Shown: piece after piece, positions 4,051-13,649 of the stretch | Numbering within the stretch: position 1 is the first letter of the stretch | Layout of the letters: each line of letters begins with the position of its first letter | Virus record (IMG/VR): IMGVR_UViG_3300030329_006380 | Coordinates: 1 to 64,000 of that record | Length of the DNA stretch: 64,000 nucleotides | From: a virus | Direction: 5' to 3' (one strand) | Notes under the pieces: generated by a model | Databases searched by the model: none | Told to the model about the DNA's origin: nothing | Seen by the model: the letters and a program-made list of their open reading frames with translations, nothing else | Program-made: the position numbers and the translations under genes

Positions 4051-4449
4051 TTACTGGACCTCGATTGTGTGGGCCTTAACAATCTCAGACTCTGGCTTTT
4101 TAACTGTTAAAACCAACACCCCCGCATCATATTTTGCTGCAATATCTTTTTCCGTTAATCCCTTCGAAACCTGCCATGACTTAGAAAAGCTCTTTTTCGA
4201 GAGAAATCTAAGATCTTCTTTGTTTCTTTCATAAGAGACAGAAAGGGTTGTTCCCTCCAAATTGACTTTAAAATCTTCCTTTTTTAAACCCGGCGCGGCA
4301 ACTGAGATTTCGTGTGCATCGCCCAGATCACGGACATAAACATCTCCAGAAGATTTTATTTTGGGAGTCTCCAGTGCAAGAAGATCTCCAAATAGATCAT
4401 CGAAGAGAAAAGTGGTGGGGTGATTATAATTCCTTCTAGTGGTTAACAT
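4051..4449 (-). CDS. hsp20: Small heat shock protein Hsp20
   Basis: 132 residues. An ATP-independent holdase that binds unfolding proteins in oligomers. The alpha-crystallin domain spans about residues 38-123, with the conserved pattern DVYVRDLGDAHEISVAAPGL at its start and GVLVLTVKK near its end. Hsp20 genes occur in T4-like cyanophages, so the family is known in phages. ATG follows AAAGGAG. The leader has an A/U-rich stem that pairs with part of the ribosome site (see findings). A terminator follows at 3993. Confidence 0.93.
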   Translation of the reverse strand: MLTTRRNYNHPTTFLFDDLFGDLLALETPKIKSSGDVYVRDLGDAHEISVAAPGLKKEDFKVNLEGTTLSVSYERNKEDLRFLSKKSFSKSWQVSKGLTEKDIAAKYDAGVLVLTVKKPESEIVKAHTIEVQ

Positions 4450-4544: not shown

Positions 4545-6494
4545 TTATTGTTCAATACAGATTTCTGAGAAGACAAGGCCCAGATCAATCGCCGCTAGAT
4601 CATGACGACTTAACCTAGAGAGTTCAAAGACATGCTGGCGTCCAGTTGGCACCATTGTATCCCACGGTGAATAAAAACCACTGGGCGTGAATACAAAAAG
4701 TTCCAATGGATCCCCGTCAGTCCAGCTTTCGTTTGTGACGCTTTTACATCCTGGTAATTCGCAAGGTGCCATCACATCAATAACATCAGTCGGAGTAATC
4801 TGTTCATTTGTTTGAGCTATTTCATCAGTAAACATTAATATAAATGGAGTAGCATTGTCGCGCCAATTAATTTGCAAATTATTTTGCATAGAGGCAATGT
4901 GATACACAGTATCCAAAGAGGGCTCCAGTCCTCCATCTGTCGTCATGCTGCTCAGGCTGGTAATTAAGTCTCCAATCTCGCTCAATTGTTGATAGAGCAC
5001 GGGATTCCCATCATCCTCCAGTTGACCAAACATAACAATGCCAAATTTATGCTCAGAATTATTTAATGAAGAGGCAAACATGGCGATCGCATCCCGAAGA
5101 TATGTTATATAACTGCTCATACTTCCAGAAACATCAATCGCAAAAATTATATCAGCCTTCTCAAAAACACGCTCCATATCATCAACCAATCCATTGCAAT
5201 CATTATCAATTGAATCACAGACTTCATCCTCAGGGGTCACTTCATTCTGACAACCCAGCCAAACACCGCGAAAACATCTTTCTGTTCCTGACTCGCAGAT
5301 TCCGACATCAATAGTTTGAGGTGGACCGGAATAACAATCACGAGTTATATTTTCATCTATATCCAGATCACAATCATCATCATAATTGTTGCAAAGTTCA
5401 ATCTGTGGCAGTTCTCCAACGCATTCGGACCACGTGCCATCCTCCATGCAAGTTTGTATTCCATACCCGCACATCGGGGGATTATTTCTACACACCTGTG
5501 TTTGCCCAAGTATACATGGGCACTCAAGATCTTCATCAATTGCCCCGTTGCAATTGTTGTCGATGCCATCACAGATTTCCTCAGTTGGTGCGGGAGCATC
5601 ACAGTCAACCCACTGACCATACGAACATTCTTCTATCCCGCGACCACAATCTGTCGTACACTCTTGCACCAATCCCTCGTCAACTGTGCCGTCGCAGTCG
5701 TTATCAAGCCCATCACATATTTCATTTTCAGGCAATGTGGCACCCCAGCATGTTATTTCAGCTTCGATGCAAGAGTCGCGACCGAAGTTACATTCACCAA
5801 CGTCGGTGGGGCCGCACTCGCCTCCTAAGCCTGCCATCTCATCCATAACACCATCGCAGTCATTGTCGTAACCATCACAGATCTCAGATTCTGGGCCAAT
5901 AAACTCTTCGCATTCAGACATTTCGCCGTCATAGCACTGTCGCCAACCACGAACACATGTTGAAAGAGCATCTTCATCATTATATATAATCCATGGATTT
6001 GACTCTTCTATCTCGCACGATATCCGCTTTGACCATCCCTCATCCACACTTCCATCGCAATCATCATCCACTCCATTACATAACTCATCGATTCCAGCAA
6101 ATCCTTCATCAATCTCACCGTTACAGTTATTGTCGATCTCATCACATACCTCTATTGGTTCTGGGGCGCACTCACCGCATGAATTGGTGACACCCTCGTC
6201 TTTCTCTCCATCACAGTCATTATCCAGACCGTCGCATACTTCCTCGACAGGAAGGACCTCTCCAACACACGGACCCCATGAATCTCCAAAACAAAATTTT
6301 CTTCCGCGAGTACATGCGCCTTTCATCGGACCATCAGTGCACTCCGACCAGACACCTGCCATGCATAAAGGCTCTTCGACTTCCTCTGCGGCGCCTCCGG
6401 TCGACTTAATTTGACCATCTGAGCATCCGAATAAAAAAATAAAAGCGAGCATAACCGCGTGAAGTGTTGAAGTTATGATCGCTTTCTTATTCAT
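4545..6494 (-). CDS. MopE-repeat and VWA-domain lipoprotein
   Basis: 649 residues. Residues 1-24 form a lipoprotein signal with lipobox L-F-G-C24. Eight copies of a putative metal-binding motif of the type CDGxDNDCDGxxDEG follow to about residue 440, most preceded by a Trp/Cys-rich segment. The C-terminal ~200 residues are a von Willebrand A domain with the MIDAS motif DVSGS and a later FTDE strand. Such MopE-type repeats bind divalent metal in outer-membrane proteins of myxobacteria and methanotrophs; VWA domains bind protein ligands. I infer a lipid-anchored, secreted surface protein acquired from a host. It sits between hsp20 and a membrane-anchored transglutaminase-like gene. Unusual for a phage. 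Confidence 0.88.
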   Translation of the reverse strand: MNKKAIITSTLHAVMLAFIFLFGCSDGQIKSTGGAAEEVEEPLCMAGVWSECTDGPMKGACTRGRKFCFGDSWGPCVGEVLPVEEVCDGLDNDCDGEKDEGVTNSCGECAPEPIEVCDEIDNNCNGEIDEGFAGIDELCNGVDDDCDGSVDEGWSKRISCEIEESNPWIIYNDEDALSTCVRGWRQCYDGEMSECEEFIGPESEICDGYDNDCDGVMDEMAGLGGECGPTDVGECNFGRDSCIEAEITCWGATLPENEICDGLDNDCDGTVDEGLVQECTTDCGRGIEECSYGQWVDCDAPAPTEEICDGIDNNCNGAIDEDLECPCILGQTQVCRNNPPMCGYGIQTCMEDGTWSECVGELPQIELCNNYDDDCDLDIDENITRDCYSGPPQTIDVGICESGTERCFRGVWLGCQNEVTPEDEVCDSIDNDCNGLVDDMERVFEKADIIFAIDVSGSMSSYITYLRDAIAMFASSLNNSEHKFGIVMFGQLEDDGNPVLYQQLSEIGDLITSLSSMTTDGGLEPSLDTVYHIASMQNNLQINWRDNATPFILMFTDEIAQTNEQITPTDVIDVMAPCELPGCKSVTNESWTDGDPLELFVFTPSGFYSPWDTMVPTGRQHVFELSRLSRHDLAAIDLGLVFSEICIEQ

Positions 6495-6506
6495 TCTGTT
6501 GTCTCC

Positions 6507-7085
6507 TTATCTTAGTTTAATCACCTTTCCAAATACTGGGGTATCATCGAACTTTAAATATTTTACCTCAAGCATGGCCGCGTGCAGGGGCTTCGCACCT
6601 CTTTGAAAAGAGCTTTGTTCATACCATTGATGTTTGTGCCACATTATCCTAGGATTATGATAGTCAGTCCAATAATATTTATCGTCTAGTCCCTGAAATA
6701 CACAGAGCGCATGGCCGGATATCCTTCCACTTCTCTTTTCCATGTGATAAAATGATATCCATGTTCTTTTAGCCAATCCGGATTTCAAAAGCGCTGCGCA
6801 CCAATATATAGCGTGGTCGTCACAGTCGCCAATTTCTTCATTTTCAGCAATATTTTTCTGAACTCTGGTTGGGTGATAAACAACGTCGAACGCGCCGCCA
6901 AGCGGATCGGATCGCCACATAGTGCCATATTCTAAAGCGGATGCTATTTCTTCGGGTGCAGAGTAAACTTTGACAGGAAAATTTTTGGTTTGCGTAAAAT
7001 ATATTGTAATTTTATACCATACTTTAGCGAGCCAAAGGAAAAAATTAAAAAAAATATATAATCCAATTTTAATTAATGAGTTCAT
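6507..7085 (-). CDS. Membrane-anchored transglutaminase-like cysteine protease
   Basis: 192 residues. An N-terminal hydrophobic anchor (about 6-30) is followed by a transglutaminase-like fold with the expected triad: C88 in GDCDDHA, H125 in SGHALCVF and D141 in YWTDYHNP. Related bacterial proteins are periplasmic proteases or amide-bond enzymes. The gene lies between the amidase block and the MopE/VWA lipoprotein, so it may process a cell-surface protein or peptidoglycan; this is inference. The ribosome site AGGGG lies in the arm of a 6-bp hairpin at 7094-7112. Confidence 0.75.
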   Translation of the reverse strand: MNSLIKIGLYIFFNFFLWLAKVWYKITIYFTQTKNFPVKVYSAPEEIASALEYGTMWRSDPLGGAFDVVYHPTRVQKNIAENEEIGDCDDHAIYWCAALLKSGLAKRTWISFYHMEKRSGRISGHALCVFQGLDDKYYWTDYHNPRIMWHKHQWYEQSSFQRGAKPLHAAMLEVKYLKFDDTPVFGKVIKLR

Positions 7086-7295: not shown

Positions 7296-8039
7296 TTAAA
7301 CCCCCCGCATAAAACCCTTGAGAAAGAGCCAAAGCTGATTAACAACACTTTTCGCCGCTGCGTCTGCGACTTCTTCAGTATTCTTAGTAGTATTATTTTT
7401 CTTCTCTTCCACTAGGGAAAACAAATATCCCCAGTCGAAATGACCAGGATCCCAGCCACCTTTCTTACTTCCACGTGAAATTGGATCCACATCTTCGTGA
7501 CCTAATATATACTTTCTCTCTAAAGGGATTTCTAGGTTATCACACAAAGATTTTATTAACTTAGCTAGGCTTTTATATTGTGCTTGAGTATAAGCACTAG
7601 TAATAGCTCCGTTTCCATGAGCCAGCAAATCAATGCCAACTGAATTGACATTCGGGCTACCCTTCCAAACCGGTAGGCTTATTGGGTTTTTTAGATCTGG
7701 CCATCTTTCGGTCCACCACTCGTAAAGCTTTTCGGACTGCAAGAGCTTTCTTTTACCACTCCCAGTGTGCCATGCTACTTCAGTTACTGGCAAGAATTGC
7801 CAAATCTTTCCCGTATGATCAATCAAAAAATGGCCTTTATATTTTAATACGTTCGCCATTCTTTTAGCATATGCTTCGCCGATCTTATCAACGGTATTGT
7901 TGTTATTCTTTATTCTTTTTAATCCTGCGCCGTAACCAGTGGTATGTATAATAATTGAATTAATTTTCGATATTAATCTTTTTTTGCCACGAGGGGTCGT
8001 ACTTTCTAAAAATTCATCTGTTACATCAAAGGGGTCCAC
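7296..8039 (-). CDS. N-acetylmuramoyl-L-alanine amidase (endolysin)
   Basis: 247 residues from a GTG start preceded by GCGAGGA. Cleaves the bond between N-acetylmuramic acid and L-alanine in peptidoglycan. It is an amidase-2 (PGRP-like) fold: zinc ligand H32 in IIIHTT, and the C-terminal GHEDVDP...KKGGWDPGHFDW segment near residues 175-200 with the second His, the Lys and the DPG motif. There is no signal peptide, so access to the wall would need a holin. The C-terminus has a hydrophobic LWLFLKGFM patch. Likely lysis enzyme, with the transglycosylase at 21199 as a second one. Confidence 0.9.
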   Translation of the reverse strand: MDPFDVTDEFLESTTPRGKKRLISKINSIIIHTTGYGAGLKRIKNNNNTVDKIGEAYAKRMANVLKYKGHFLIDHTGKIWQFLPVTEVAWHTGSGKRKLLQSEKLYEWWTERWPDLKNPISLPVWKGSPNVNSVGIDLLAHGNGAITSAYTQAQYKSLAKLIKSLCDNLEIPLERKYILGHEDVDPISRGSKKGGWDPGHFDWGYLFSLVEEKKNNTTKNTEEVADAAAKSVVNQLWLFLKGFMRGV

Positions 8040-10128: not shown

Positions 10129-11700
10129 TTAAGCCTCCACTATTGCATGGTTAGTTGTAATAAGTGTTGAAGTCACTGACACGGCGTTTTGCAGTGCGCA
10201 CCTAGTAACTTTTGTTGGATCGATAATCCCAGCATCCACTAGATCGACGATGCGTCGATTAGCAAAATCATAACCATTATTTCCTTCACATTCGTACTTT
10301 ATTCTCTGGATGATAATGTCTGGCGACTCTCCGGCATTTTGAGCCATCTGGCGAACTGGCTCTGAAAGTGCCAACAAAACAATTTTCTTTCCTAGCTCCT
10401 GCTCCTCGTTGTCTGTCTCTACTTCTAAACCCTCAGAAGCTCGAATAAGCGCTGTGCCTCCGCCCGGAACAACGCCCTCTTGTTGGGCTGCCTTAACTGC
10501 TTCCAGTGCGTCAATAATCCGATGTTTTTTTTCTACCATTTCAAGTTCAGTTGCTGCCCCAACTCTAATAACTGCAATGCCAGAAGCAAGACGAGTGATG
10601 CGCCCCTGTATCCTCTCGCATTCATGAATATTATCAGTTTGATTAAGCTCTGCCTTGAGTGCTTCAATTCGCTTTTCAATTTCATCTTCATCTCCATTCC
10701 CATCCATGATGGTGGTCATATTCTTGGTGATTTCAATAGATTTCGCAACACCCAAGTGTTCTAATTTAGTTTCTTTTAATTTATGGCCTGTTTCCCGAGT
10801 AATAAACTCTGCTCCAATTGATATAGCCAGATCTTTTAGAATATCTCTTCTTTCTTGTCCATAGCAAGGAGCCTTAACTGCCGCGACCTTCATTGTTCCA
10901 CGAATGGAGTTCATAATTAATGCCGCCAAAGCTTGTCCAGAAACTTCTTCTGCGACAATCACCAGAGGCCGGCCCTCACGAGCGACAACTTCTAGAACAG
11001 GGAGCATGTCCTCAACCAATTCAATTTTAAAATCAGTAACCAACACAAATGGATTATCATATTTGGTGACTCCTCGTGATTCATCCGTGATAAATTGCGG
11101 AGATGAATATCCGGAATCAATTCTGAATCCTTCGACAATGTCTAAGGATGTCTCATAAGATCTTGCATCTTCAATTGTTATCGACCCATCATTGCCAACC
11201 AAATCAACCGCAGTGGCAATAAGTTTGCCAATAGTTTCATCACCGTTTGCTGAAATGGTGGCAATATGTTCAACATCTTCTTTCTTTTTAATTGGTTTCG
11301 ATATTTCCCGTAAACCAGAGACAATTCTTTCAATTGTTTTGTCCATCCCTCTCTTAAGCTCAATAGGTGATGCCCCCGAGATTAAATATTTCTGGGATCT
11401 CCGGAGGAGGGCTCGGGCCAAAACAGTCGCAGTGGTAGTTCCATCGCCTGCATCTGAGTTTGTTTTTGCTGCAGCCTGTTTGATTGCTTGTGCTCCTAGA
11501 TTTTCAAAGGGGTCCTCAAGATCAATAAATTTTGCAACTGTTACGCCATCTTTTGTAATAATGGGCCTAGCGTCTTTCCGCTGAATTATAACATTTCTTC
11601 CTCGGGGACCAAGCGTACTGGCAACGTTATCTGCTAAGATATTAGCCCCGTTCAGAATTTTATTTTGCAATGTTAGCTTTGATTCATATTGTTTTGGCAT
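10129..11700 (-). CDS. groEL: GroEL-type chaperonin
   Basis: 523 residues, full length for a group I chaperonin (about 545) but without the GGM tail. Folds proteins in a double-ring cavity with ATP. Visible signatures: LGPRGRNVIIQ and KDGVTVA near the start, the ATPase loop DAGDGTTTATVLA near residues 83-95, EGVVPGGGTALIRA and the C-terminal DLVDAGIIDPTKVTR. Phage GroELs are known in a few large phages, some working without GroES. Here a GroES-like gene exists 11 kb away at 23203. A perfect sigma70 promoter lies directly upstream inside an inverted repeat. Probable clients are capsid or tail proteins. Confidence 0.96.
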   Translation of the reverse strand: MPKQYESKLTLQNKILNGANILADNVASTLGPRGRNVIIQRKDARPIITKDGVTVAKFIDLEDPFENLGAQAIKQAAAKTNSDAGDGTTTATVLARALLRRSQKYLISGASPIELKRGMDKTIERIVSGLREISKPIKKKEDVEHIATISANGDETIGKLIATAVDLVGNDGSITIEDARSYETSLDIVEGFRIDSGYSSPQFITDESRGVTKYDNPFVLVTDFKIELVEDMLPVLEVVAREGRPLVIVAEEVSGQALAALIMNSIRGTMKVAAVKAPCYGQERRDILKDLAISIGAEFITRETGHKLKETKLEHLGVAKSIEITKNMTTIMDGNGDEDEIEKRIEALKAELNQTDNIHECERIQGRITRLASGIAVIRVGAATELEMVEKKHRIIDALEAVKAAQQEGVVPGGGTALIRASEGLEVETDNEEQELGKKIVLLALSEPVRQMAQNAGESPDIIIQRIKYECEGNNGYDFANRRIVDLVDAGIIDPTKVTRCALQNAVSVTSTLITTNHAIVEA

Positions 11701-13070: not shown

Positions 13071-13649
13071 CTAAACTATTTTATCTGCAATACCATATGC
13101 AACTGCTTCTTCCGCAGAAAGGTATACATTTGTTTTCTTACTAATTATCTTGTTGATCTTCTTAACGGAAAGATTTGTTTCCCGTGCAAGACATTCAAAG
13201 TATTTTTCCTGTGTCCATGCTACTTCTTCTAAATCATTCTGCATTTCTGAAACAGAACCCTGCAATCCTGATCCTCGGGCATTGTGAATCATAACGCGGC
13301 AATATTTGCCAATCTTACGCTTCCCTTTGGTGCCAGCGGCAAGCAACAATACGCCAGCAGACATAACTTTCCCTAGAGCCAAACAGTGGATCTCGTTTTC
13401 TTTTCGCACAATACGCATGGTATCATAAATCGAAAACATATCGTATGCATCGCCTCCGCCCGTAGAAATAATAAATTTAATTGGGGCCTTCTTTTTTTCT
13501 TTATTCTTGCTGTTATTTAGCAGCATCAGGGAATATGTAACCTCTGATGCCCTCTCTTCACTAACTTCACCGTAGAGACCCACCAAGCGTGGCTCTTCCA
13601 GTTCAACGGAGACTAACTGTTCTAATTCTTCAACTATTTCTTTTGACAT
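13071..13649 (-). CDS. clpP: ClpP-like serine protease
   Basis: 192 residues, the size of bacterial ClpP. Degrades proteins inside a tetradecamer, normally fed by ClpA/ClpX. The nucleophile S97 in VMSAG and H122 in MIHNARG fall at the same numbers as in E. coli ClpP, but the third triad position (Asp in the DRFLSA segment) reads N174 in TNVYLSAEEA. ClpP-like proteins in other phages serve in head maturation; here a separate gp21-type protease does that, so a regulatory or host-takeover role is more likely. Strong AAGGAGG start. Confidence 0.9.
   Translation of the reverse strand: MSKEIVEELEQLVSVELEEPRLVGLYGEVSEERASEVTYSLMLLNNSKNKEKKKAPIKFIISTGGGDAYDMFSIYDTMRIVRKENEIHCLALGKVMSAGVLLLAAGTKGKRKIGKYCRVMIHNARGSGLQGSVSEMQNDLEEVAWTQEKYFECLARETNLSVKKINKIISKKTNVYLSAEEAVAYGIADKIV

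Follow-up and report, generated by a model that had tools for sequence, protein, structure and literature searches.

Surface proteins of the Myxococcota with MopE repeats (PF11617, 'putative metal-binding motif') contain many copies of the sequence CDGxDNDCDG and are secreted or lipoproteins. A phage-encoded lipoprotein of known function is Llp of T5, the superinfection-exclusion lipoprotein of a lytic phage, which is small and periplasmic and jams FhuA (PMC9586334). Searches of the open literature revealed no paper joining MopE, phage and von Willebrand. The locus described here encodes a lipoprotein with both MopE repeats and a von Willebrand-type (VWA) domain. It lies in a stretch of 64,000 nucleotides (the window) of a 136,483-bp IMG/VR virus record, IMGVR_UViG_3300030329_006380. 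The record encodes a T4-type major head protein, a portal and a contractile sheath; the carrier of the lipoprotein is a tailed phage with T4-like head and contractile tail genes.

Architecture of the lipoprotein

The 649-residue open reading frame is a real gene, reads from an ATG on the minus strand and lies outside the structural gene block. Its features are as follows (window coordinates).

4545..6494, minus strand: MopE-repeat/VWA lipoprotein gene (P0001), 649 aa; from the ORF reading and full-length viral relatives
6503..6508, minus strand: Shine-Dalgarno sequence AAGGAG, 8 bases 5' of the lipoprotein ATG; read from the sequence
6423..6494, minus strand: signal peptide (residues 1-23) and predicted lipid-acceptor Cys24 (LFGC); from a conserved Cys column
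5172..6236, minus strand: eight MopE/Cys-Asp repeats, residues 87 to about 441; from PF11617 and the motif count
4548..5159, minus strand: VWA head, residues 446-649; from PF00092, alignment, the AF2 model and PDB fold matches

The N-terminus (MNKKAIITSTLHAVMLAFIFLFGC24) has a basic n-region, a hydrophobic core and a lipobox-like LFGC, in agreement with the lipobox-plus-hydrophobic-core rule that defined a bacterial-type lipoprotein. Both elements were found in 32 of 36 virus-type members by this rule-based scan, and conservation of the Cys24 column reaches 90% or more across the aligned family. The motif C-[DN]-x-x-D-[DN]-[DN]-C-[DN] was counted eight times, and the region belongs to Cu-binding_MopE (PF11617; E 2e-30, 105 bits, Pfam cut-off 27). 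Residues 448-572 match VWA (PF00092; E 6e-6) at 27 bits, above the cut-off of 23.8. The repeats, the 49 cysteines and the VWA domain all recur in the full-length relatives, far above chance. The signal peptide with lipobox, the eight repeats and the VWA domain, all proposed in the initial annotation of this DNA, are confirmed.

The same annotation described the VWA domain as containing a MIDAS. This holds for D454, S456, S458 and D557 (the DxSxS motif and the Asp of the MIDAS), which are invariant in a 14-member alignment, but not for the usual MIDAS threonine, which is not conserved and in whose loop E524...D528 is family-invariant instead. E558 and Q561 are likewise invariant in the family VWA head. 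The metal site may resemble that of the beta-integrin I-like domain, which we take, from its motifs, to have Glu for Thr. In the AF2 model the VWA domain is confident (block pLDDT mostly 76-90, residues 450 to 570) and much of the repeat region is of low confidence. The best PDB fold matches of the model are integrin I and I-like domains (E 1e-8); a sequence search of the PDB gave no match to the lipoprotein. The repeat region may form a metal-binding, disulfide-rich stalk, and the sequence supports the earlier proposal that this tailed phage encodes a protein that is lipid-anchored, Cys/Asp-rich, of adhesion type and probably divalent-metal-dependent.

Viral and cellular relatives

Two viral scans found relatives over most of the length, with 34-36% identity to the window protein, on 13 contigs, two of which have an identical sequence. 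A second set of full-length relatives occurs among trypsin-carrying viruses. The relatives reach about 790 aa, compared with 649 aa in the window, and in most of the sister contigs read the full-length ones are downstream of a phage GroEL gene. Among capsid sisters (61-66% capsid identity to the window), five of 12 contigs (>28 kb) have the gene; in four the copy is full-length, and in the fifth the contig ends within it. The 191-kb sister phage G060 is collinear with the window record (71 reciprocal best hits) and has the MopE-VWA gene at the orthologous place, the two proteins sharing 33.5% identity against a median of 42.8% for the 71 orthologues.

The VWA tree contains two viral groups. 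That of the window protein has 17 rows (support 99/94), which are 16 viral contigs and a phage contig, G295:C1, that is discussed below. The other includes T4-like contigs and also L005, which has a PF04860 portal and no T4-type capsid match; the second viral subfamily extends to a phage with an unrelated portal. A single origin of all viral VWA members is neither established nor rejected (AU p 0.32). For either viral subfamily there was no PHROG match of any kind and no NCBIfam model, and no match to the MopE-VWA protein was found in a collection of 50,697 phage records or among cultured phages. The best viral structure match is BFVD A0A516KYY5 (27% identity, E 2.7e-20), a shorter viral protein of 266 aa.

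MopE repeats are abundant in the Myxococcota (210 matches in one genome), and with the full profile the MopE part alone was matched in Myxococcota genomes, among the matches listed. With the VWA part, 284 Myxococcota genomes gave generic VWA matches of at most 56 bits plus one at 159 bits. The latter sits on G295:C1 (34.9 kb, 46% GC), where the matched genes are sister-phage genes; two other sampled contigs of the same MAG have 67-68% GC. G295:C1 is of phage origin and has been binned into a Myxococcota reference MAG, in which it is contig 1; it is likely to be a binning artefact or an infected-host signal. Its binning hints at a Myxococcota host, but weakly, because of the GC mismatch. Shine-Dalgarno sites are frequent in the phage, which argues against a Bacteroidota host.

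The Myxococcota VWA matches examined have no MopE repeat; all the virus-type ones have it. Two successive VWA-domain searches, of 284 and of 237 genomes, do not support a strict Myxococcota origin; the two sets overlap and both include Myxococcota, and about a dozen candidates per genome are scored, so that divergent MopE+VWA proteins could escape. The two domains are combined in proteins of archaeal MAGs with small genomes (L006, L263 and L264), with a lipobox in L006 and L263. L006 (JAUYKZ010000015.1, 23% GC) has archaeal neighbours (proteasome, FttA), and the genomes of L263 and L264 are of the same phylum; of the 193 genomes from this phylum covered by the VWA search, two gave MopE-VWA. 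The initial annotation assigned the architecture to the Myxococcota and relatives, which is supported for the MopE repeats but not for their union with VWA: the strong VWA match among the 284 genomes is on a phage contig, and the architecture also occurs in archaeal MAGs. It named a phage-only family as evidence against its reading; the sequence family is nearly that, but the domain architecture is not phage-only.

Because of the orthologous place in G060 and codon use typical of the phage (rank 13 of 30), the MopE-VWA gene is regarded as old and inherited within a wide group of marine viruses. Codon use and the same locus in sister phages had been suggested as checks on a recent capture from the host, and both went against it. 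Neither a near-identical cellular homologue nor atypical codon use was found.

Gene neighbourhood and the companion protease

The genes around the lipoprotein gene, and the gene for a second lipoprotein, are as follows (window coordinates unless stated).

4051..4449, minus strand: Hsp20 small heat-shock protein, downstream neighbour (PF00011, 2.6e-14)
6507..7085, minus strand: upstream gene, 12 bases away, with a weak transglutaminase-like match (DUF553) below the Pfam cut-off
7296..8039, minus strand: N-acetylmuramoyl-L-alanine amidase (Amidase_2; PF01510, 2.8e-21), same neighbourhood in sister phages
10129..11700, minus strand: phage GroEL-type chaperonin, syntenic landmark upstream of the lipoprotein gene (PF00118, 2.2e-72)
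13071..13649, minus strand: ClpP protease, second syntenic landmark (PF00574)
130121-130924 of the record, plus strand: Trypsin_2 lipoprotein

GroEL is upstream of the lipoprotein gene in the window, in nine other contigs of the synteny table and in G060, and is often accompanied at these loci by ClpP or the amidase. The Hsp20 family (cluster c10) is also near the lipoprotein gene in L032-L034, and the DUF553-like upstream gene has its orthologue elsewhere in a sister phage. Hsp20, GroEL and ClpP lie close together in the window, a proteostasis neighbourhood that is partly kept across sister phages. The amidase, 0.8 kb upstream in the window, has the same neighbourhood in L023, L024, L025, L028, L029 and G060, and a gene for an M15/VanY-type peptidase follows the lipoprotein gene within about 0.5 kb in L023-L027. 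Peptidoglycan hydrolase genes are nearby in 8 of 12 loci of the window's subfamily, the window counted; neither hydrolase family is in the stretches read of L030, L032, L033, L034, L272, L273 (the last two of the trypsin-linked subfamily) and G295. The T4-type late promoter TATAAATA gave 19 matches, only one of them upstream of a gene, so expression timing is not readable from promoters; promoter and terminator scans gave signal at chance level.

Other genes were noted near these loci. The window encodes at 49-717 a protein that sister phages conserve and that carries a pair of CCHC-like zinc knuckles (CxxCxxxGHxxxxC). In one sister phage the small-ORF family c3 (about 90-133 aa) has seven paralogues (L025:4923-7300 and 12447, 15793), several of them in tandem directly upstream of the MopE-VWA gene.

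In L005, L032, L033 and L034 the gene following MopE-VWA encodes the Trypsin_2 lipoprotein. Its lipid Cys29 and an intact triad (His95, Asp142 and Ser212) are invariant in five sequences; the lipobox is present in 84 of 90 viral relatives and the motifs for His and Ser in 80, and no match was found in the phage-record collection. It is present in all three long subfamily-1 records examined (the window record of 136 kb and those of 190 kb and 191 kb), in G060 at the orthologous place with 26.7% identity, again against the median of 42.8% for 71 orthologues. The protease led to 44 contigs of 30 kb or more, some of them duplicates, which include 16 with a MopE-VWA ORF of 574-755 aa, two with a 423-aa version and two with repeats only; a MopE gene was within the stretch read at 3 of 80 protease loci. 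One phage has its MopE-VWA gene near the PhoH-type gene whose counterpart in the window record adjoins the protease gene. The linkage of the two lipoprotein genes is suggestive; common descent of the phages confounds their co-occurrence, as does ascertainment, since these contigs were found via the protease.

The phage's exported set is enlarged by a secreted DUF2490 protein (record 130892-131548) and a secreted FGE-sulfatase-domain protein (PF03781; G000:C1:70518-71222, L019:6518-7222), the latter among replication/recombination genes. Outside the window the record also has a phosphonate-type gene run (G000:C1:118079-121169, L021:14079-17169) for a cytidylyltransferase, a class-V aminotransferase, a TPP enzyme and a PEP mutase (PF13714, 2e-41), embedded in a block of sugar/methyl-transferase-like genes. 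The TPP enzyme is phosphonopyruvate-decarboxylase-like, and its N and C halves are encoded by two separate ORFs that overlap. A glutamine synthetase (PF00120/PF03951; G000:C1:132553-133581, L022), with an orthologue in G060, adjoins a weak PHO4-type transporter match (G000:C1:131561-132523, L022). At G000:C1:133651-135217 (L022:9651-11217) an OMP decarboxylase is beside a protein with a class II tRNA-synthetase fold, judged by eye to be asparagine-synthetase-A-like.

Proposed function and comparison with known systems

An envelope location of the lipoprotein is well supported by its predicted export and lipidation signals. Beyond that, we infer that the protein sits in the outer membrane or at the surface, binds metal and a ligand, acts in exclusion and is a partner of the protease. 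The reading that we tentatively prefer, while giving it rather less than an even chance, is a lipoprotein of the superinfection-exclusion type, by which surface receptors would be blocked or remodelled from within the envelope of the infected cell. A surface role of this kind has a precedent in T5 Llp, an envelope lipoprotein of a lytic phage. The protein would be made during infection and exported via the host Sec and lipoprotein pathway, and its N-terminal cysteine would anchor it in the envelope. A disulfide-bonded, metal-loaded MopE stalk would present the MIDAS-type VWA head, which would most likely grip a host or phage surface protein and block or remodel it; phages of the same kind would then fail to adsorb to infected cells and their debris. 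The trypsin-like lipoprotein would probably act in the same compartment. That both lipoproteins fall below the median identity is as would be expected for exposed, host-facing proteins, though this is not specific to arms-race genes. A doubtful extension, to which we give about one chance in four, is an undescribed two-lipoprotein envelope module, present in marine T4-like and at least one unrelated phage type, in which the MopE-VWA 'gripper' and an active trypsin-like protease would together cut or mask infected-cell surface proteins in proteolytic superinfection exclusion or surface remodelling.

The main rival, because peptidoglycan hydrolase genes are near in those 8 of 12 loci, is an outer-membrane lipoprotein of the lysis module that loosens or disrupts the outer envelope or surface layer at the end of infection. 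The neighbouring Amidase_2 and M15/VanY-type genes would fit lysis equally well, and the protease lipoprotein could contribute to it; the loci lacking both hydrolase families in the stretches read, and a VWA domain on a long metal-binding stalk, unlike the small spanins, make it rather unlikely. Ranked third, after exclusion and lysis, and less likely again, is an adhesin through which infected cells clump together or attach to particles or other cells, with consequences for transmission or for the sinking of those infected cells. A MIDAS-type VWA on a repeat stalk is the classic layout for this and the best fold matches are integrin I domains, but the advantage for a lytic phage is less obvious than with exclusion.

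The remaining readings are improbable. Phage-wide conservation and fast divergence would suit a virion component, such as a decoration or receptor-binding protein, but the family-wide signal peptide and lipobox would export the protein, whereas T4-like virions assemble in the cytoplasm, and the gene's place outside the structural block also tells against it. The name of PF11617, which refers to copper binding of the kind found in methanotroph MopE, and the acidic, Cys-rich composition would agree with a literal reading as a metal-scavenging or metal-storage lipoprotein, which is very improbable: storage does not need a conserved VWA head, and DxDxDG-type loops suggest structural calcium. Slighter still is the chance, raised in the initial annotation, of a recently captured host surface gene so far without a selected function in the phage. 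The abundance of MopE repeats in the Myxococcota is in its favour, but it is contradicted by the orthologous position in sister phages, the phage-typical codon use, nearest relatives that are all viral and the well-supported 17-row VWA subfamily.

The family defined by these analyses, large surface lipoproteins encoded by phages, is conserved and uncatalogued, and it is tied to a surface protease of the phage. Were the exclusion reading true, superinfection exclusion would no longer be confined to small lipoproteins but would include adhesion-type machinery that works with proteolysis, and there would be a way to test how marine T4-like phages that are uncultured change the surface of their hosts.

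The protein represents a known architecture of the cell surface in a new form, carried by a phage. Its likeness to T5 Llp is one of description, both being phage-encoded lipoproteins in the envelope of a lytic phage's host; unlike the small Llp, for which no repeats or VWA are reported, it has 649 residues with both. With the Myxococcota surface proteins it shares the repeat, but the VWA matches examined there are without MopE and the sole strong full-length one is on the phage contig. Integrin beta I-like and alpha I domains have the same fold, the DxSxS motif and the MIDAS Asp, a resemblance at the level of the fold only (10-16% identity). The archaeal lipoproteins, of which L006 differs from the window protein in sequence (26-27% identity), unite lipobox (L006, L263), MopE repeats and VWA in one chain, as in the phage protein.
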